A stretch of 64,000 nucleotides of DNA from Archangium gephyra (lineage in GTDB: Bacteria; Myxococcota; Myxococcia; Myxococcales; Myxococcaceae), in assembly GCF_001027285.1 (NCBI RefSeq), contig NZ_CP011509.1:11494501-11558500 (forward strand), in the 5' to 3' direction. Within the stretch, counting starts at the first letter, position 1. The number at the start of each line of letters is the position of its first letter. Under the pieces are notes generated by a model, which saw only the letters and a list, made by a program, of their open reading frames with translations, ran no database searches and had not been told where the DNA came from. Made by a program: the position numbers and the translations under genes. This document shows positions 18,172 to 30,081 of the stretch, in pieces.

Positions 18172-18398
18172 GGTGTAGTCCGTGCCACCGGCACGGGTCC
18201 TCGGCAGGTTTTCGGACTCACGGGCAGCGTGGCCTCGCGCGGAGGACACCTTGCCTACTGGCCGTCGCTTCCCAGCCCTCGGGTGAGGACCAGTGCATCC
18301 TGACGGTTTTCGTTCCCGTTCACCGCTGCGGGGCAGTCCCGGACTCGCACCGGGTTCCCTCGAGTCCCCACCAACAGGTGGAGGAACCGAAGACGGGG
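18172..18398 (-). promoter_or_regulatory. Cobalamin riboswitch A
   Basis: On the minus strand, in order, the RNA shows AGGGAACCCGGTGCGAGTCC, GACTGCCCCGCAGCGGTGA, GCACTGG, CTGGGAAGCGACGGCCAGTAGG split by a stem, and finally GAGTCCGAAAACCTGCC. These are the conserved core elements of the cobalamin riboswitch, including the B12-box-like 3' segment (AACCTGCC). It ends about 125 nt before the propeller lipoprotein start at 18045. Binding of cobalamin would be expected to shut off this operon. Confidence 0.88.
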
Positions 18399-18401
18399 GG
18401 C

Positions 18402-18431
18402 GGGATATGGCGGCGGGGCATCTCTTGTCAA
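18402..18431 (-). promoter_or_regulatory. Sigma-70-like promoter for riboswitch A
   Basis: The minus strand carries a perfect TTGACA (18431-18426), an 18-nt spacer and TATCCC (18407-18402), placed directly before the riboswitch core. The -35 begins 8 nt beyond the end of the last tRNA gene of module A, so the two transcription units abut. Confidence 0.55.
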
Positions 18432-18438
18432 CTGCGAG

Positions 18439-18513
18439 TACCGCGGGCGGGATTCGAACCCGCAACCTCTGCGTTCTGAGCGCAGCACCTCTACCAGGTT
18501 GGGCTACCGCGGC
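18439..18513 (-). tRNA. tRNA-like gene, anticodon CAG (Leu), module A
   Basis: This 75-nt cloverleaf has acceptor GCCGCGG/CCGCGGT (G1-U72 pair), T arm GCGGG-TTCGAAT-CCCGC, discriminator A and anticodon stem CTGCG/CGCAG with loop CTCAGAA. U33 is present and the anticodon CAG reads CUG. The D stem is short (3 bp). The variable region is only 5 nt, whereas ordinary bacterial tRNA-Leu has a long variable arm. No CCA is encoded. It is last in the module A array. Confidence 0.75.
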
Positions 18514-18541
18514 ATGTGCTTCCACTGCTGGGACTGCGAAG

Positions 18542-18613
18542 AGCGGTCGGCGGGAGTCGAACCCGCGTTCTCCTGAGTGGCGCTCAGGGGCCTCACCTCT
18601 CGGCCACGGCCGC
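18542..18613 (-). tRNA. tRNA-like gene, anticodon GCC (Gly), module A
   Basis: The 72-nt cloverleaf has a GCGGCCG/CGACCGC acceptor with one C-A mismatch (the module B copy pairs perfectly), T arm GCGGG-TTCGACT-CCCGC and anticodon arm CCTGA-GCGCCAC-TCAGG. The anticodon GCC reads GGC/GGU. Position 33 is C rather than the near-invariant U. Discriminator U73 fits glycine identity. The D arm is shortened. Confidence 0.7.
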
Positions 18614-18625
18614 ATGTTGCTGGAG

Positions 18626-18696
18626 CGCTCCCGCAGGGAATCGAACCCTGTTCACACGGTAGACGGCCGTGCTGCGATCCAATCGCATCCGAGAGC
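18626..18696 (-). tRNA. tRNA-like gene, anticodon GTC (Asp), module A
   Basis: The 71-nt cloverleaf has acceptor GCTCTCG/CGGGAGC, T arm CAGGG-TTCGATT-CCCTG, a strong D stem TGCGA/TCGCA and anticodon arm CACGG-CCGTCTA-CCGTG. The anticodon GTC reads GAC/GAU. Position 33 is C and position 8 is G, both unusual. Discriminator G73 agrees with aspartate identity. Confidence 0.7.
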
Positions 18697-18708
18697 TTGT
18701 GCTGCGTG

Positions 18709-18780
18709 TACCCCGTACGGGAGTCGAACCCGTCTTTCCGCATTGAGAGCGCGGTGTCCTCGCCGATAGACGAACGGGGC
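18709..18780 (-). tRNA. tRNA-Glu-like gene, anticodon CTC, module A
   Basis: The 72-nt cloverleaf has acceptor GCCCCGT/ACGGGGT (G1-U72), the D-arm sequence TTCGTCTATCGGCGAGGAC typical of tRNA-Glu, anticodon arm CCGCG-CTCTCAA-TGCGG with U33, and T arm ACGGG-TTCGACT-CCCGT. The G1-U72 pair with discriminator A73 is also seen in chloroplast and cyanobacterial tRNA-Glu. It is first in the array, about 95 nt after the peptide gene. Confidence 0.85.
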
Positions 18781-18795
18781 GGCAGAGCAGGACCC

Positions 18796-18864
18796 GGAAA
18801 AGCGAAAGGCCGGGTCCCTTTCTGGGAGCCCGGCCTCTGAGTCCACGCCTCGTCTGGGACGAGG
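18796..18864 (-). terminator. Paired hairpins between peptide A and its tRNAs
   Basis: Two stems follow the peptide stop on the minus strand: CCTCGTC/GACGAGG (18864-18858 with 18854-18848) and GGCCGGG/CCCGGCC (18835-18829 with 18814-18808), the latter followed by TTTCGCTTTT. The second looks like a weak intrinsic terminator or attenuator. Module B has the same structure with a better T-run. It may limit read-through into the tRNAs or serve as a processing site. Confidence 0.55.
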
Positions 18865-18875
18865 TCGCGAAAGCT

Positions 18876-19028
18876 TCAGAGTCCGGGCGGTAGACCACCC
18901 GTCGGCTCCAGGCCGAGCAGGAGATCCAGAGCGGTATCCAGACCGGGACGCGTCAGCGCGTCGATGCCAGCGTCAGTGTCGTTGAGGTGCTTGAGGTTCA
19001 TCGGGCTGTTCTTCGTCACCGTCGTCAT
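18876..19028 (-). CDS. 50-aa peptide of the peptide-tRNA module, copy A
   Basis: The 50-aa peptide begins MTTVTKNSPMNLKHLND and ends in a Leu/Gly-rich part containing ALDLLLGLEPTGGLPPGL. An AAAGGAG ribosome-binding site precedes the ATG at 19028. It differs from copy B (23971-24123) at six bases, four synonymous, so the amino acid sequence seems conserved. The TGG|LPPGL end could be a double-glycine processing site (inference). No known family. Five tRNA types found in the modules read exactly the residues in LDLLLGLE. No modifying enzyme is recognisable nearby. Confidence 0.75.
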   Translation of the reverse strand: MTTVTKNSPMNLKHLNDTDAGIDALTRPGLDTALDLLLGLEPTGGLPPGL

Positions 19029-19085
19029 GGTCACCGCTCCTTTCATTCAGAAATGACGCGGCTCGAATTCCTTCCTGACAACGCC
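19029..19085 (-). promoter_or_regulatory. Conserved upstream region of peptide A
   Basis: About 55 nt before the peptide start are shared with copy B: TTGTCAGGAA, then GCCGCGTCATTTCTG, then ATGAAAGGAGCGGTGACC. TTGTCA would serve as a -35, but no convincing -10 is visible at 17-18 nt. The conservation ends just beyond TTGTCA, which marks the edge of the duplicated module. Confidence 0.45.
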
Positions 19086-19103
19086 CGCTCACGTCTGGAG
19101 CGA

Positions 19104-19132
19104 TTGACAAAAGGACCTGCCCCCACTACCGC
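19104..19132 (+). promoter_or_regulatory. Sigma-70-like promoter of the 786-aa protein gene
   Basis: A perfect TTGACA (19104-19109) is followed by a 17-nt spacer and TACCGC (19127-19132). The AGGGAGG ribosome-binding site lies at about 19141-19147. Transcription would be divergent from peptide gene A. Confidence 0.45.
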
Positions 19133-19151
19133 TCGCGCGCAGGGAGGCCCC

Positions 19152-21512
19152 TTGCCGCAACGTTCGCAGCTCTTCGCCATTCGTGCTTCTCCAGGGTGGG
19201 TTGCCCTGCTCGTCGCGTGGTCGCTCCTCGGCGGCGCGGCCTGGGCACAGACCCCCGTCGTGCAGGCGCCCCTCGGGGGCAACCCCCTGCTCCTTCCAGG
19301 CAGGGTCGTCTGCGGCCCGGCGACGGAGGGCTGGACCGTGGGCGAGGATTCACGCTCCGTCCGCCCGCCCCGGGCAGGCAGTGGGCGCGTGGGCCAGCCG
19401 GTGATGCTCCAGGTGGCGCCGGCCGCGAGCGGTTGCACGGGCACCCAGGAGACGCTCACGCTCGTGGCCACGGGGGCCTTCCCCGAGGTCGAGCCGGCGA
19501 GCGTGCTGCTGGCCGCGGACGAGGGGCGGCTCGAGCTGCGCGGGCGGGGGCTCGCGGGAGCGCAGGTGTTCTGGCCGGGCCCCACTCGCGATGCGCGGCT
19601 GGAGCACGAGGCGTGCATCGACGCCGGACCCTCGGAGCTTCCGCAACCGTGCGTGTTGCCGGTGCGCCGCGGTGTGCCGGCGGACGTGCCGCTCTTCCTG
19701 CTGCCGGCGGGGGCGCGCTTCGGTGACGGCGTCCTCACGTTCAACGCCTCGGGCCGGCAGCTCGAGCCCTCGGAGCTGCAGTTGCGCCCGAGCCGCGTCA
19801 TCCTGGCCTCGGTCCTGCCGGGAGTGCCCGCCCTGGATCTCTCCACCGGAGAAGGGCGTCTGGCGCTGCCGCACCCCGAGGCCATCGCCGCCGTCGACTG
19901 TGGCCCCGCCCGCTGCGAGCTGAGCGAGGGCGGCGTCTTGGTGCGCGCCGTGCCGGGCCTCGTCACGAGCCTGGGCCTCCGGGTGCGCCTGGTGCCCCGG
20001 GTGTTCGTCTCGCGGGGGGAGGCCCTCGAGAGCAACGCCTCCGCGGTGCTGCAACTCCTGCACTGCCCGGTGGAGCTCGTGTCGGGGCCGCCGCTGAGAA
20101 GCGCGGAGGACATGCGGGTGGTGGTGCGGGTGGACCCGCGCTGCGCGTCCGAGGCCCGGTCCTTCCACTGGCGCGCCAACGGCGAGCCCGCCGAGGTGTC
20201 CCAGGTGGTCCGGGAGGAAGAGGCGGCCTTCGTGCTGCTGCGGGTGGGACGCCTGGGCGCGGACCGGCTGACCCTCACGGCCACCCGCTCCGAGGTGGAC
20301 CCGACCGTGATCGCCACCACCGCGGCGGACACCATCACGGCGCCCTACCCTCGCGCGAGTCTCGAGCTTCCCGGTTTCGGCAAGGTCGACTTCATCCCCA
20401 CCAACCGGGAGTCGGTCCTCTCGGTGGCGTCTCCGGGTGAGCGCGCGAGGCTCGTGCCGCTGCCCGTCGAAGGGGCCTACTCGGTGCGGACCGAGCAGGG
20501 ACGCTTCCGGGTGAGAGGCGATGAGAACAACAGCGGCTTCGTCCCGCTGCGCTTCGGCTATCGCGTCGAGGGGCTGCCACAGGCCTTGCGCTCGGTGGAC
20601 CTCGCCGTCGTGTACGAGCGGACCCAGCGGGCGCTGCGGGAGGCCTCGGTGCCCGCGCCGTTCAGTGCGTCGGCCGAGTCCGAGGAGCCGCTCATCGAGT
20701 TCCTGTGCTCGGATCGGGACGGGAAGCCCCAGCGCATCCAACCCGGCAAGCCAGCGCGCATCCCCTTCGAGGCACGCGACAGCTGCCGGATCGTCATCCA
20801 CCGGGAGCGGCTGCGGCCCGAGGATGGCCTGCAGGAGATCATCCTCGAGGTGGACGTCACCAGCGCCAGCGGGTCGTCGCGAGAGGCCGCGCGGGTGAAC
20901 GAGCGCATGGTGCTCCAGCCCGGCGGCGAGCCCCGGACGTTCTGGCTCAAGAATGTCCTGGAGCAGTTCGATCGCATCGTCGTGCGCGTCAGCCACGTGG
21001 TGGACGAGTCGCGCTACCTGCTGGCGGCGCCCTCGTCCCGGGCCAGCCTGCCCTCGGTGCAATGGTCAGCGACCGTCGAGGGCTCGCGGCTGCGCCTGTA
21101 TGCCACCGCCACCATCCCCAGCGGCCTCTACCGGCTGAATCAACCGACGGGGCAGCTCACGCTGAACTTCGGCCTGCTGTCCCGGCTCACGTTGTTGGAT
21201 GAGCACGGCAAGGAGGGGCTGTTCGGGCTGGAGCTGGGACTGATGGGCGTGGGGCTCGTGCAGACGGGAGGCCTGCTGAATGACTATCCCCCCACGCTGG
21301 CCGCCGTCACGGGACTGGGCATCCGCGTGCCGCTGGGAGGCGGCCCCGCGGGTGGGCAGGCCGCCTTGAGCATCCACATCTGGGGAGCCTACGAGTTCCG
21401 CGAGGCCTACTTCACCAAGCCCACGGACGGCTCACCCGGGAAGGAGGTGGGCCGCTGGGCGCTCATCTTCGGGCCCAGCATCTCCCTGGGAAACATCGGC
21501 ATGAACCTCTAG
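19152..21512 (+). CDS. Large secreted protein with C-terminal beta-barrel-like region, hypothetical
   Basis: The 786-aa protein has a signal peptide (WVALLVAWSLLGGAAWAQ) and a long mature region of beta-rich segments resembling Ig/bacterial surface repeats. Its last 130 or so residues alternate in the manner of an outer-membrane barrel (LTLNFGLLSRLTLLD to LGNIGMNL). I chose TTG 19152 because AGGGAGG lies 4 nt before it and it places the signal peptide at the N-terminus; an ATG at 19053 would precede the promoter. It lies between the two peptide-tRNA modules. Function unknown. Confidence 0.7.
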   Translation: MPQRSQLFAIRASPGWVALLVAWSLLGGAAWAQTPVVQAPLGGNPLLLPGRVVCGPATEGWTVGEDSRSVRPPRAGSGRVGQPVMLQVAPAASGCTGTQETLTLVATGAFPEVEPASVLLAADEGRLELRGRGLAGAQVFWPGPTRDARLEHEACIDAGPSELPQPCVLPVRRGVPADVPLFLLPAGARFGDGVLTFNASGRQLEPSELQLRPSRVILASVLPGVPALDLSTGEGRLALPHPEAIAAVDCGPARCELSEGGVLVRAVPGLVTSLGLRVRLVPRVFVSRGEALESNASAVLQLLHCPVELVSGPPLRSAEDMRVVVRVDPRCASEARSFHWRANGEPAEVSQVVREEEAAFVLLRVGRLGADRLTLTATRSEVDPTVIATTAADTITAPYPRASLELPGFGKVDFIPTNRESVLSVASPGERARLVPLPVEGAYSVRTEQGRFRVRGDENNSGFVPLRFGYRVEGLPQALRSVDLAVVYERTQRALREASVPAPFSASAESEEPLIEFLCSDRDGKPQRIQPGKPARIPFEARDSCRIVIHRERLRPEDGLQEIILEVDVTSASGSSREAARVNERMVLQPGGEPRTFWLKNVLEQFDRIVVRVSHVVDESRYLLAAPSSRASLPSVQWSATVEGSRLRLYATATIPSGLYRLNQPTGQLTLNFGLLSRLTLLDEHGKEGLFGLELGLMGVGLVQTGGLLNDYPPTLAAVTGLGIRVPLGGGPAGGQAALSIHIWGAYEFREAYFTKPTDGSPGKEVGRWALIFGPSISLGNIGMNL

Positions 21513-21517
21513 CGCCG

Positions 21518-23290
21518 TCATCTCGACAGCGCGGCCATCTGGCCCTCGGGCTCATCGCTCACCACGAACATCACCACGTACCGCGACCAGGGTTCGCCGC
21601 GCGGGTGGTAGTGCGCGATGCTCACCACCACGTGCACCGGTGAGGCGCTCAGCATCGGCTCCGGAAAGGTCAGCTCGTCGAGGGAGCTGGTCTCCATGAC
21701 CCAGCCCTGCAACGGCCGGTTGAGGCTCTTCTGCGTTTCCTCCAGCAGGTAGCGCAGGGCCGCGGCCGGCTTCTCCTGGCCCTTGCCGAGCATCTGGGCG
21801 ATGCGCGCGTTGGCTCCCGGCGGCGCCTCCCCCCACAGCGCGCTGGCCGCGCCCTTCTGCGTCCGGGCCTTGTTCAGCCGGCCGATGAGCTGCTTCTCGG
21901 CCCGCGAAAACTCTTGCTCGTCCACGAACGCGTAGGTCGAGTACACGGTGCCCACGCCGCCCGACGCGCTGTTCGACACCAGGCCCACCGCCAGGGCTCG
22001 CGAGCGCTCGTCCAGGAGCGCGGCCCGTCCCTGCGGCATTTCGAGCACCCGTGTCAGAAGCAGCCGCAGATCCTCGGTGGACCCGACCCAGGCGGAGCCA
22101 AAGGTGCCCTCGAGCACCGCCCCCTCGACGTCCCAGCCGGCTTGCATCCCCATCGCGATGGTATCGGCCACCATCGTGGGCGCGTTTCCGGAGAGGGCGC
22201 GGAAATAGTGTGGGGCAACCCGCCCCGCCACCTCGCTCTGGCGTCCTTCGAGGTGTAGCGGAGCAATCCCCGCGCGTTGACGAACCTGGTTCACCAGGCC
22301 GAGGAACGCCTTCACGTTGTCGACCCCGTTGGCCGTCAAGGCCGCGGGCTGCCCCTCGAGCGGCCGACGCTGGTAGACCTTCTGAGCCTCGCCGCTGGGA
22401 AAGAGCAGCACGCGGACGACGCCATCGCCGAGGAACCGTCCCGGGGGGAAGACGGCGATGGACAACCAGGCCATCGTGTCTGTCTTCGCGGGCGTGCAGG
22501 TCACCGAGAACCGGGGGAGCTTGATAGCCGGGTCGGCCTCGCACCGCCCGAAGCCGAACTCCCCCTGATTGACCAGTGCACCCATCCGCTCGGTCGAGAC
22601 CAGCAGCTCCCCCCGAATCCGCACGTTCCCGCTCGCATCGGGGATTTGTGACACGCCCTCGAGCAGCACTCGACGCAAGCTGGTCGCGGCGATGAACACC
22701 ACCTGGCCCTTCTTCCGGCCATACCAGACCCCCGCCGCTTGATTACCGCCAGCCGGGAGCTCGGCCAACATCTTCTCGAGCTGGGGCCGCCACTGGCGGA
22801 AGAGCTCATCGTCCGAGACGTTTTCCGGCACTTCGCCGGTGAACCAGGACGTGCCGACATCGTAGGCCGCGGCGCCACAGCGGCCGTGGATGAAGTCTTC
22901 CAGGTCCTCGGTCGGCCAGCCGCCGTGCGCGAGGTAGAAGCGGCCACTCTCGCGGGCAACGCAGTGCATGTCCTCGGTGGCCAGGAGCACACCGGGTTTC
23001 GCCTTGGCCTGCACGGCGAGCAGCTCCTCCCACCGGTTGGCCGCCTCACGGGGGAGGGTCGCCACCTTGTCGGGAAAAGGCCCGGCCAGCTCCCACCGGT
23101 CGACCATCACCCGCTTGATGCGCGGCGGCACATCGCTGACCTCCTCGGTGGCCAGCTCGAGCAACGCCTCACGGGGAGGAAACCGATGTTGGGGAGCCTC
23201 CTCGGGTTGTCTCTCCACCGGGCGAGAGGCAGCGCACCCGATGAGCGTACTCACCACCAAGACGAATGACGGAACCCAATGAACACGCAT
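21518..23290 (-). CDS. Lipoprotein with a possible CAP/SCP-like domain, hypothetical
   Basis: The 590-aa protein has lipobox LIGC (Cys19). The middle part, from about residue 320, has the pattern LVNQVRQRAGIAPLHLEG and later AxAVGLVSN, loosely resembling CAP/YkwD-type domains, but the match is by eye only. It converges with the 786-aa gene (5 bp between stops). It lies directly downstream of tRNA module B on the same strand, with a 140-bp gap. Confidence 0.65.
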   Translation of the reverse strand: MRVHWVPSFVLVVSTLIGCAASRPVERQPEEAPQHRFPPREALLELATEEVSDVPPRIKRVMVDRWELAGPFPDKVATLPREAANRWEELLAVQAKAKPGVLLATEDMHCVARESGRFYLAHGGWPTEDLEDFIHGRCGAAAYDVGTSWFTGEVPENVSDDELFRQWRPQLEKMLAELPAGGNQAAGVWYGRKKGQVVFIAATSLRRVLLEGVSQIPDASGNVRIRGELLVSTERMGALVNQGEFGFGRCEADPAIKLPRFSVTCTPAKTDTMAWLSIAVFPPGRFLGDGVVRVLLFPSGEAQKVYQRRPLEGQPAALTANGVDNVKAFLGLVNQVRQRAGIAPLHLEGRQSEVAGRVAPHYFRALSGNAPTMVADTIAMGMQAGWDVEGAVLEGTFGSAWVGSTEDLRLLLTRVLEMPQGRAALLDERSRALAVGLVSNSASGGVGTVYSTYAFVDEQEFSRAEKQLIGRLNKARTQKGAASALWGEAPPGANARIAQMLGKGQEKPAAALRYLLEETQKSLNRPLQGWVMETSSLDELTFPEPMLSASPVHVVVSIAHYHPRGEPWSRYVVMFVVSDEPEGQMAALSR

Positions 23291-23429
23291 CGCGACAGCC
23301 CCCCCGGTTTGTGTCGACGTCTGACCTCCTAGGCCCGCGTGGAGGGGCCCGTCAAGCCAGCATGAAGCCAGGGCATGCGGGAGCTTGGAGTGTCTGACAA
23401 AACCGGACGGGTGCACGGGGGACTGCGAG

Positions 23430-23504
23430 TACCGCGGGCGGGAGTCGAACCCGCAACCTCTGCGTTCTGAATGCAGCGCCTCTACCAGGTTGGGCTACCG
23501 CGGC
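23430..23504 (-). tRNA. tRNA-like gene, anticodon CAG (Leu), module B
   Basis: This 75-nt gene matches the module A CAG gene in acceptor, D arm and T arm. The anticodon stem CTGCA/CGCAG has an A-C mismatch at the loop end; the loop TTCAGAA keeps U33 and anticodon CAG. Short variable arm, discriminator A, no encoded CCA. Confidence 0.72.
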
Positions 23505-23531
23505 ATGTGCTTCCACTGCTGGGACTGCGTG

Positions 23532-23606
23532 TGCCGGAAGCGGGAGTCGAACCCGCAACCTCCAGACTCTCGATCTGGCGCCTCTACCAGGTTGGGCTAC
23601 TCCGGC
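23532..23606 (-). tRNA. tRNA-like gene, anticodon GAG (Leu), module B only
   Basis: The 75-nt cloverleaf has acceptor GCCGGAG/TTCCGGC, discriminator A, the same D arm as the CAG gene (GCCCAACCTGGTAGAGGC) and T arm GCGGG-TTCGACT-CCCGC. The anticodon arm is CCAGA-TCGAGAG-TCTGG; GAG reads CUC/CUU. Position 33 is C. The variable loop is 5 nt, not class II as usual for Leu. It is absent from module A; the spacer on each side is the same repeated sequence, so it looks like a tandem duplicate of the CAG gene with a changed anticodon arm. Confidence 0.72.
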
Positions 23607-23633
23607 ATGTGCTGCACTGCTGGGACTGCGAAG

Positions 23634-23707
23634 AGCGGCCGGCGGGATTCGAACCCGCGTACACCTGAGTGGCGCTCAGGGGCCTCGTGCCTCTCGGCCA
23701 CGGCCGC
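23634..23707 (-). tRNA. tRNA-like gene, anticodon GCC (Gly), module B
   Basis: The 74-nt cloverleaf has a perfect acceptor GCGGCCG/CGGCCGC, discriminator U, T arm GCGGG-TTCGAAT-CCCGC and anticodon arm CCTGA-GCGCCAC-TCAGG (C33). The D loop is two bases longer than in the module A copy. Confidence 0.75.
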
Positions 23708-23720
23708 ATGTTGGGTGGAG

Positions 23721-23791
23721 CGCTCCCGCAGGGAATCGAACCCTGTTCACACGGTAGACGGCCGTGCTGCGATCCAATCGCATCCAAGAGC
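23721..23791 (-). tRNA. tRNA-like gene, anticodon GTC (Asp), module B
   Basis: The 71-nt cloverleaf is the same as the module A copy apart from one acceptor base (GCTCTTG/CGGGAGC). Anticodon loop CCGTCTA (C33), discriminator G, position 8 G. Confidence 0.7.
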
Positions 23792-23803
23792 TTGTGCTGC
23801 GTG

Positions 23804-23875
23804 TACCCCGTACGGGAATCGAACCCGTCTTTCCGCATTGAGAGCGCGGTGTCCTCGCCGATAGACGAACGGGGC
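23804..23875 (-). tRNA. tRNA-Glu-like gene, anticodon CTC, module B
   Basis: The 72-nt cloverleaf differs from the module A copy by one T-loop base. U33 present, G1-U72, discriminator A. First tRNA after the peptide gene. Confidence 0.85.
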
Positions 23876-23890
23876 AGGAGAGCAGGACCC

Positions 23891-23959
23891 GGTAAAACAA
23901 AAGGCCGGGTCCCTTTCTGGGAGCCCGGCCTCTGAGTCCACGCCTCGTCTGGGACGAGG
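23891..23959 (-). terminator. Paired hairpins between peptide B and its tRNAs
   Basis: As in module A, a CCTCGTC/GACGAGG stem is followed by GGCCGGG/CCCGGCC (23930-23924 with 23909-23903). Here the 3' side reads TTTTGTTTTACC, a better intrinsic-terminator T-tract than in module A. Confidence 0.6.
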
Positions 23960-23970
23960 TCGCGAAAGCT

Positions 23971-24123
23971 TCAGAGTCCGGGCGGTAGACCACCCGTCAG
24001 CTCGAGACCGAGCAGGAGGTCCAGAGCGGTTTCCAGACCGGGACGCGTCAGCGCGTCGATGCCAGCGTCAGTATCGTTGAGGTGCTTGAGGTTCATCGGG
24101 CTGTTCTTCGTCACCGTCGTCAT
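23971..24123 (-). CDS. 50-aa peptide of the peptide-tRNA module, copy B
   Basis: The 50-aa peptide differs from copy A only by D31E and P42L, giving ALDLLLGLELTGGLPPGL near its end. AAAGGAG precedes the ATG. The gene starts 80 bp after the btuC stop on the same strand, and its tRNA array follows. In LDLLLGLE the codons are CTG GAC CTC CTG CTC GGT CTC GAG, all readable by the five tRNA types of this module. It could be a processed or modified peptide (RiPP-like) or a scaffold for tRNA-dependent amino acid addition; neither is proven. Confidence 0.75.
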   Translation of the reverse strand: MTTVTKNSPMNLKHLNDTDAGIDALTRPGLETALDLLLGLELTGGLPPGL

Positions 24124-24179
24124 GGTCACCGCTCCTTTCATCCAGAAATGACGCGGCGAAAATCCGTTCCTGACAACGC
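24124..24179 (-). promoter_or_regulatory. Conserved upstream region of peptide B
   Basis: It shares TTGTCAGGAA, GCCGCGTCATTTCTG and AAAGGAGCGGTGACC with the region before peptide A. It lies in the short gap after btuC, so the peptide may be transcribed from here or by read-through from the cobalamin-regulated operon. Confidence 0.45.
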
Positions 24180-29790: not shown

Positions 29791-29855
29791 GAACCCGCCT
29801 TCCGCTCTCTCCGTCGAAGAGAGAAGGCAAACGCGGGCAGCTCGCGCCCACACCC

Positions 29856-30068
29856 CTGGGCAGGTCTCCTGGCTGTCGGACTCCGGCCGAGACGCACGCC
29901 GCGTCTCCCAGAAGGGCTCCTCCACCTTCCCCCGGTTGCAACACCGGAGTGGCGACTGCCGAGGACCCCTGCCCTGACCTCAGGGCTGCCCGATCACAGT
30001 GGCGGGACCGCGCCGGACTCGCACCGGCTTCCCTCTTGAAGGCCCGGCATGGGCACCCAAGGGCAGGC
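29856..30068 (-). promoter_or_regulatory. Cobalamin riboswitch B
   Basis: On the minus strand the element shows GGGAAGCCGGTGCGAGTCC, GCGGTCCCGCCACTGTGA, GCCACTCCGG, CGGGGGAAGG and the exact B12 box AGCCAGGAGACCTGCC. It ends about 70 nt before the btuB-like start. It should repress btuB, the propeller lipoprotein, btuF and btuC when cobalamin is plentiful. Confidence 0.95.
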
Positions 30069-30081
30069 CCTTCCTAGGGGC

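Follow-up and report, generated by a model that had tools for sequence, protein, structure and literature searches.

Leaders of the trp, his, leu and phe type are ribosome-mediated transcription attenuators, and T-boxes bind uncharged tRNA directly, without translation, to regulate synthetase and amino-acid genes. Two further kinds of system involve clusters of extra tRNAs. It has been proposed that phage-encoded tRNAs with mutations in the anticodon loop evade tRNA nucleases (van den Berg et al. 2023, PMC10264068), and mycobacterial tRNA array units, which contain 26-27 variant tRNAs for 19-20 amino acids, have been suggested to play an antidefence role (Yano et al. 2026, PMC12803027). Here, we analysed a 64-kb stretch of the Archangium gephyra genome (contig NZ_CP011509.1, positions 11,494,501 to 11,558,500; hereafter, the window), which holds two copies of a module consisting of a gene for a 50-amino-acid peptide followed by tRNA genes that match the peptide's own codons. 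Based on sequence comparisons and RNA modelling, we consider it highly probable that each module is an operon of spare tRNAs under the control of ribosome-mediated transcription attenuation, in which the 50-amino-acid open reading frame (ORF) serves as the leader peptide. Attenuation is known as such, and no description of leader-peptide attenuation of a tRNA operon was found in the open-access literature; what appears to be new relative to that literature is its application to genes whose tRNAs decode the test codons of their own leader.

Both copies, A and B, lie on the minus strand, and each comprises the ORF with a strong Shine-Dalgarno sequence, two hairpins and four or five tRNA genes. 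According to ARAGORN, the tRNA order is Glu-CTC, Asp-GTC, Gly-GCC and Leu-CAG in copy A, and Glu-CTC, Asp-GTC, Gly-GCC, Leu-GAG and Leu-CAG in copy B; the copies are 97% identical across a 300-nt ungapped stretch. The coordinates, ORFs and tRNAs given in the initial annotation of this DNA are confirmed by the ORF list and ARAGORN, and its claim that the copy B codons for LDLLLGLE are all covered is correct: every one of them (CTG GAC CTC CTG CTC GGT CTC GAG) is readable by the copy's own array. Copy A has no GAG tRNA, which leaves its CTC codons uncovered. Of the nine window array tRNAs, Rfam recovers seven at the gathering score and misses both Asp genes. The genome to which the window belongs (12.49 Mb in one contig) has 79 Rfam tRNA matches, and among the tRNAs read from it there are core tRNAs for all five anticodons of the window arrays; the window array tRNAs are therefore extra.

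Comparison across genomes indicates that such peptides are genuinely, and generally, paired with tRNAs that match their own residues. A peptide profile search found matches in 54 of the 96 genomes of the family, at 81 loci. ARAGORN detects a tRNA downstream of 80 of these, and the remaining one, in genome G104 (genomes are denoted by handles, G000 being that of the window), is followed by a degenerate Trp-like tRNA recognised by its T-arm, so that all 81 loci are linked to tRNAs. Thus, the question posed in the initial annotation, whether tRNA genes follow homologous peptides, receives a positive answer. The Shine-Dalgarno context AAAGGAGCGGTNNNNATG occurs at 105 sites, also in 54 of the 96 genomes, and its reversed control gives no match in these 96. 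Fifty-nine of the sites coincide with profile loci and 46 do not; 41 of the latter are leaders with tRNAs, which brings the total to 122 leaders in one family of the myxobacteria, a group of predatory soil bacteria. Many of these 41, whose ORFs are 22-62 amino acids long, have unrelated peptide bodies. The other five sites were dropped, namely four ORFs that are ordinary or very short and have no tRNAs, and the site on G100:C111. The latter (G100:C111:138218, minus strand) is a leader-like ORF without the usual stop, whose frame continues through the hairpin region and behind which ARAGORN listed no tRNA; it is possibly a natural mutant. Array content ranges from one tRNA up to 26 different anticodons. 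Four leaders occur in the genome of the window. Two of them are those of copies A and B, a third precedes a whole-set array, and the fourth, whose peptide ends in SPWRRYRRLF, precedes tRNA-Tyr and tRNA-Trp. About 15 spare tRNAs with their own leader are found in the same genome at G000:C1:3631435-3633040 (minus strand), in a gene order much like that of whole-set arrays of other genera. A spread beyond the family was rejected: among the 195 genomes of the phylum that were searched, the Shine-Dalgarno context is no commoner outside the family (2 of 99 genomes) than its reversed control (also 2 of 99).

Sequence analysis further showed that, on average, the anticodons of an array track the late codons of its leader. 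In homologous leaders grouped into 14 tail clusters, the own array can read a fraction of 0.316 of the tail codons, compared to 0.184 after permutation (z 5.3, p<=5e-5), whereas the N-terminal half gives 0.148 against 0.133 (p=0.11). With 7 clusters, the tail remains significant (p=0.0005) and the N-terminal half does not reach significance (p=0.21); with 36 clusters, the tail gives z 8.7, and the N-terminal half is weaker yet significant (z 3.7). Because large arrays match almost anything, those with at least 15 anticodons were left out of the main homologous-leader and per-position tests, and those with at least 9 out of the 122-leader, paired and within-genus tests; when the large arrays are included in the homologous-leader test, 40 and 14 clusters give p<=5e-5 and 7 clusters p=0.03. 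The member with the largest array stood for its cluster (the first member in the within-genus permutation), and the anticodons of four degenerate tRNAs missed by ARAGORN (three Trp, one Asp) were added by hand before the tracking tests. In the per-position test, enrichment at p<=0.002 is seen for 10 of the 13 codon positions spanning -6 to -18, counted from the stop; there is none at codons -2, -3 and -5, and codons -1 and -4 are borderline (p about 0.03). A codon window from -5 to -18 was chosen after the per-position test, the tail of the homologous leaders having been set beforehand. Over this codon window, the set of all 122 leaders, restricted to small arrays, gives z values of 11.2, 7.8 and 5.0 for 52, 31 and 17 clusters, respectively (each p<=5e-5). 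Permutation within genera, with one representative per cluster, gives z values of 8.9, 6.3 and 3.9. Paired relatives differ by 79 tRNA types present in only one of the two, and the bearer of the tRNA has more cognate codons in 35 of these contrasts, which are not fully independent, an equal number in 38 and fewer in 6. Tails rich in Ala, Leu, Pro, Gly and Asp precede Gly/Ala/Leu/Pro/Asp arrays, the EPEPVPDELEWLDGIASFR tail precedes a Glu/Arg/Arg/Val array and the CRWRDFASYRLAS tail a Tyr/Trp array. The co-variation of anticodons with peptide residues, suggested as a check in the initial annotation, is thus found on average, and the caveat raised there that the match may be partly chance is not borne out, the match being far from chance by permutation.

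The region between the leader ORF and the tRNAs has the predicted properties of an RNA switch. The sequence CCCGG-nn-CTGA at the end of the ORF is predicted to pair with the 5' arm of the second hairpin, CAGAGGCCGGG, which was located in 80 of the 81 profile leaders, with duplex energies of -6.7 to -25.7 kcal/mol. When the partner window is slid along the RNA, the optimum falls at the stop codon (mean -16.7 kcal/mol; -16.3 at the overlapping offset +3 and -14.5 at -3), and offsets beyond 3 nt reach only -8.1 to -12.7 kcal/mol (n up to 114). The own strand pairs better than swapped strands (z -5.4), the mean for shuffled strands being -11.5 kcal/mol; thus, both sides of the switch appear to have changed together. 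A hairpin with both arms is present in 108 distinct leaders (123 records, duplicates included). In the window copies, the antiterminator stem, of which the first hairpin is the tip, has a predicted energy of -40.8 kcal/mol (z -5.0), and the terminator-like hairpins are weaker. The elements of the two copies are as follows.

24150..24175, minus strand: copy B promoter-like element TGTCAGG-N15-CGTC, a conserved motif across leader upstream regions
24132..24138, minus strand: copy B Shine-Dalgarno sequence AAAGGAG in its conserved context, from a pattern search of the family genomes
23971..24123, minus strand: copy B putative leader peptide ORF, 50 amino acids, test codons LDLLLGLE near the 3' end (ORF call, match statistics)
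23971..23982, minus strand: copy B antiterminator strand CCCGGACTCTGA, ending on the stop codon, predicted to pair with the 5' arm of the terminator-like hairpin
23943..23959, minus strand: copy B first hairpin, the predicted tip of the antiterminator stem (fold)
23924..23936, minus strand: copy B switch strand CTCAGAGGCCGGG, terminator 5' arm and partner of the antiterminator strand (predicted pairing, fold)
23894..23930, minus strand: copy B terminator-like hairpin with T-rich tail (-28.0 kcal/mol, z -4.5)
23803..23875, minus strand: copy B tRNA-Glu(CTC) (ARAGORN; Rfam tRNA, 53.9 bits)
23720..23791, minus strand: copy B tRNA-Asp(GTC), with C at position 33 (C33) in the anticodon loop (ARAGORN; below the Rfam gathering score)
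23633..23707, minus strand: copy B tRNA-Gly(GCC), C33 (ARAGORN, Rfam)
23531..23606, minus strand: copy B tRNA with Leu anticodon GAG, short variable loop, C33 (ARAGORN, Rfam)
23429..23504, minus strand: copy B tRNA with Leu anticodon CAG, short variable loop (ARAGORN, Rfam)
19055..19080, minus strand: copy A promoter-like element TGTCAGG-N15-CGTC (motif conservation, genome search)
19037..19043, minus strand: copy A Shine-Dalgarno sequence AAAGGAG (pattern search)
18876..19028, minus strand: copy A putative leader peptide ORF, 50 amino acids (ORF call)
18876..18887, minus strand: copy A antiterminator strand (predicted pairing, fold)
18848..18864, minus strand: copy A first hairpin, the predicted tip of the antiterminator stem (fold)
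18829..18841, minus strand: copy A switch strand (predicted pairing, fold)
18799..18835, minus strand: copy A terminator-like hairpin with T-rich tail (-26.3 kcal/mol, z -3.5)
18708..18780, minus strand: copy A tRNA-Glu(CTC) (ARAGORN, Rfam)
18625..18696, minus strand: copy A tRNA-Asp(GTC), C33 (ARAGORN; below the Rfam gathering score)
18541..18613, minus strand: copy A tRNA-Gly(GCC), C33 (ARAGORN, Rfam)
18438..18513, minus strand: copy A tRNA with Leu anticodon CAG, short variable loop (ARAGORN, Rfam)

We modelled the effect of ribosome position on the 108 distinct leaders by masking the RNA under the ribosome, which was assumed to cover 12 nt counted from the first nucleotide of the A-site codon. 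In this model, antiterminator and terminator are mutually exclusive: stalling exposes the antiterminator, and a ribosome at the stop conceals it. The mean probability of the antiterminator is 0.00-0.02 with the A-site at codons -1 to -4, 0.08 at -5, 0.36 at -6, 0.76 at -7 and 0.86 at -8, staying at 0.80-0.86 from -8 to -22, and a ribosome on the stop codon gives a terminator probability of 1.00. Thus, the modelled zone in which stalling frees the antiterminator begins where the codon-anticodon match begins. The last codons of the leader, usually those for PPG plus one, are constant, and the C-terminal PG-stop is probably conserved because of the RNA pairing of its sequence.

The sequence displays features expected of an attenuator, that is, a short ORF with an upstream Shine-Dalgarno sequence and test codons before the stop that are related to the regulated tRNAs. 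We propose that a ribosome translates the short leader just behind the RNA polymerase and that the codons at about -6 to -18 from the stop serve as test codons. As long as the tRNAs for these codons are plentiful and charged, the ribosome would arrive at the stop codon and cover the antiterminator strand, the terminator hairpin would form and the tRNA genes would stay silent. If one of these tRNAs is scarce or uncharged, the ribosome would stall upstream, and the region of the stop codon would be free to pair with the 5' arm of the terminator; with the antiterminator paired, the polymerase would read on and tRNAs with matching anticodons would be produced. Termination and antitermination presumably take place in the cell as the model predicts, and the array tRNAs are presumably charged and used; the natural trigger would not be simple amino-acid starvation but loss of tRNA, for instance to tRNase toxins or to nucleases of phage defence. 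One option in the initial annotation, tRNA decoys sensed by translation of the peptide, came close to this mechanism in that translation of the peptide would sense tRNAs; the terminator/antiterminator logic and the tRNA genes as the likely output were missing from it.

Several observations weigh against the attenuator. Isolated upstream codons (-28, -34 and -40) are also enriched, and the upstream part of the leader tracks the arrays as well, both with 36 clusters and in the mixed set of all leaders; part of the tracking signal is therefore due to shared ancestry. The choice among synonymous codons adds nothing beyond the amino acid (0.78 compared to 0.76), and codon-level tuning was accordingly discarded. 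In small arrays, tRNAs for Val, Lys, Asn, Gln and Phe find little correspondence in the leader core, and loci in G099, G054, G034 and G104 keep a Tyr codon without a tRNA-Tyr detected by ARAGORN. As for the RNA, 5 of the 80 stop-side duplexes are weaker than -13 kcal/mol, a GGCCGGG arm is missing from 5 of the 41 motif leaders, the Glu/Arg/Val leaders of G117 and G118 lack the 3' arm, and the second copy in G004 lacks both hairpins while its tRNAs are kept. A simple terminator scan of the window listed neither hairpin, the tract that follows being T-rich but interrupted. Furthermore, the model without a ribosome gives an antiterminator probability of 0.80, which implies a default ON state, unlike in trp-type attenuators; a trp-like protector hairpin that would keep the untranslated operon off is thus not supported, although such a hairpin is not required of every attenuator. 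Finally, free full-length RNA at equilibrium favours the terminator (0.93), and timing must therefore matter.

The array tRNAs themselves are peculiar: many look chargeable, judging from their sequences, but have remodelled anticodon loops. Among 644 of them, 122 have C33 and 519 have U33, whereas all 46 core tRNAs, a comparison set of distinct tRNAs from the genome of the window alone, have U33. The loop changes are isotype-specific and recur across genera. All 16 Leu-GAG array tRNAs have C33, the loop GCGCCAC is found in 34 Gly-GCC array tRNAs and CCGTCTA in 36 of the 37 Asp ones, and the Tyr array loop is CTGTAGA in 27 out of 27 cases, compared to CTGTAAA in core Tyr; other isotypes (e.g. 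Thr, Cys, Pro-GGG, Asn) are mostly unchanged in the loop. Arrays also contain tRNA-Arg(GCG), with an anticodon that is unusual in bacteria and is not seen in the core set. CCA is encoded in 15 of the 644 array tRNAs versus 16 of the 46 core tRNAs, a 5-nt variable loop is present in 83 of the 84 array tRNAs with Leu anticodons, and some array Trp tRNAs have a very short D-arm, with the anticodon at position 29-30. Nevertheless, 440 of 630 array tRNAs have the discriminator base of a core tRNA with the same amino acid (157 of the remainder were not parsed), compared to 233 (standard deviation 45) with shuffled amino acids.

What such an operon is for can be read in several ways. It is a serious, if still tentative, possibility that the arrays provide inducible, self-calibrating immunity, in which loss of a tRNA to a rival's toxin or to phage or defence nucleases induces its own replacement by cleavage-resistant spares. 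Sensing based on translation reports the functional supply of charged tRNA, and more of the missing tRNA helps if that tRNA has been destroyed. The arrays would presumably answer tRNase attacks such as those of myxobacterial toxin exchange; expressed in E. coli, the M. xanthus toxin SitA3 cuts tRNA-Ala(UGC) (PMC5562445). Alternatively, the same attenuator might respond to amino-acid starvation or codon demand, the extra tRNAs retuning translation in starvation or development. Ribosome stalling cannot distinguish an uncharged tRNA from a missing one, and all tests made fit both triggers. Extra tRNA, however, would be useless when the amino acid is missing, and whole sets of up to 26 anticodons together with altered loops fit replacement of damaged tRNAs better, so that starvation seems a possible but rather unlikely trigger. 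It is less likely still that the array tRNAs act as decoys, soaking up tRNA-cutting enzymes or other tRNA-binding proteins. Their C33 (122 of 644 compared to none of 46 in the core), rarely encoded CCA, the very short D-arm of some Trp tRNAs, the 5-nt variable loops of those with Leu anticodons and the window Asp tRNAs below the Rfam cut-off would all suit bait, but the agreement of the discriminator base with the core far exceeds that in shuffled sets, and altered loops would be expected of cleavage-resistant tRNAs rather than of bait.

The match between leader and array could, in principle, also have arisen by chance and common descent, from arrays of viral or plasmid origin that lie behind a conserved leader and match its residues by composition. 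Ancestry does inflate part of the signal, as the head of the leader is significant with 36 clusters and in the mixed set, but the permutation tests reject a chance match, and tracking persists when permutation is confined to genera. Moreover, homologous leaders in 14 or 7 clusters show no head signal and a tail that is still significant, paired relatives favour the tRNA bearer by 35 to 6, and the switch strands co-vary; collectively, this makes descent alone a very improbable account. Least credible of all is that the peptide is the product, either a ribosomal natural product or the substrate of a peptide aminoacyl-tRNA ligase (PEARL), with dedicated tRNAs. PEARLs use aminoacyl-tRNAs, and the residues of the peptide do match the tRNAs. 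However, many leaders have unrelated bodies, down to 22 amino acids, the tracking is mainly at -6 to -18, the peptide has no Pfam match, and a ratio of nonsynonymous to synonymous changes (pN/pS) of 0.65-0.75 (217 non-independent pairs) points to weak constraint at the protein level. Of the seven neighbouring window proteins scanned against Pfam, none belongs to a PEARL/LanB-type family, the matches being FecCD, Peripla_BP_2, a TonB receptor and an ABC ATPase, with three proteins without family. The unrelated bodies, the position of the match and the neighbours led us to reject the peptide as a product or PEARL substrate. Hence, neither of the other two options of the initial annotation, tRNAs reserved for synthesis of the peptide and tRNAs that supply it with residues in a PEARL-like manner, finds support, the conserved PG-stop being explained by RNA pairing.

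The leaders also share a promoter-like element. Of 121 distinct regions upstream of leaders, 120 have a GTCAGG-type motif at -36 to -38 from the Shine-Dalgarno sequence, GCGTC is conserved in at least 75% of them, and a simple sigma-70 scan found no site in the leader-promoter region. The described ECF41 promoters have the form TGTCACA-n16-CGTC (PMC3426412) and share with the leader element a TGTC-type -35 and a CGTC -10 about 16 bp apart; the -35 of the leader element is TGTCAGG and its spacer N15, making the two similar but not identical. By analogy with this promoter form, the arrays may constitute a stress regulon. The motif alone is weak, as a genome-wide search with it yielded 12 sites versus 8 for the control; these 12 include both window copies, a site before another odd tRNA array and one before a tRNA-like sequence. 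At G000:C1:8185468-8185828 (plus strand), odd tRNAs for Ile, Val, Ala and Ala lie directly behind a TGTCAGG-N-CGTC element, without leader or hairpins, and the tRNA-Ile(GAT) is the sole one among the tRNAs read from this genome. At G000:C1:1126374-1126686 (minus strand), the element is followed by two T-arm sequences, one of them in a tRNA-like sequence with the anticodon loop CTATTAA and about 100 nt between anticodon arm and T-arm; the Rfam tRNA match spans 163 nt, and ARAGORN finds none. At G000:C1:9249282 (minus strand), the element precedes an apparent leader relic with no tRNA close behind.

As for its surroundings, the window lies in a gene cluster for cobalamin-type uptake (with a FecCD permease, a periplasmic binding protein, a TonB receptor and an ABC ATPase) and contains two cobalamin riboswitches, at 18186-18406 and 29842-30075 (minus strand), the first of which directly follows copy A. 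Two large predicted proteins without a Pfam family, at 18987-21512 (plus strand) and 21518-23416 (minus strand), are encoded between the copies.

If the proposed attenuation is correct, the modules represent a circuit that measures tRNA supply by translation and corrects it at the transcription of tRNA genes, by means of matching codons and anticodons. This would give a reason for odd-looking extra tRNA arrays and would predict which tRNAs each species expects to run short, and it is directly testable, as the family includes a Myxococcus xanthus strain. With the trp, his, leu and phe attenuators, the modules share a leader ORF with a Shine-Dalgarno sequence, test codons towards its 3' end and, as predicted, mutually exclusive terminator-like and antiterminator structures with the position of the ribosome as the switch. 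They differ in that the regulated genes are tRNAs reading the test codons rather than biosynthesis genes, that the test codons are a mixture corresponding to the array set and that the operon is predicted to be ON without leader translation. As in T-boxes, a leader RNA would sense tRNA shortage and control the formation of a terminator, but the myxobacterial leader would do so through translation of an ORF; an Rfam scan of the window at the gathering score listed only tRNAs and cobalamin riboswitches and no T-box, and identity with a T-box riboswitch was therefore rejected. The mycobacterial array units resemble the whole-set arrays of myxobacteria, although in the strains of that study they reside on large linear plasmids, and the main text of the paper does not use the word leader (PMC12803027). 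Finally, phage tRNAs (PMC10264068) and the myxobacterial arrays have in common clustered extra tRNAs with altered anticodon loops, whereas the arrays described here are chromosomal and come both as whole sets and as small sets of particular isotypes, a matching leader accompanying each.

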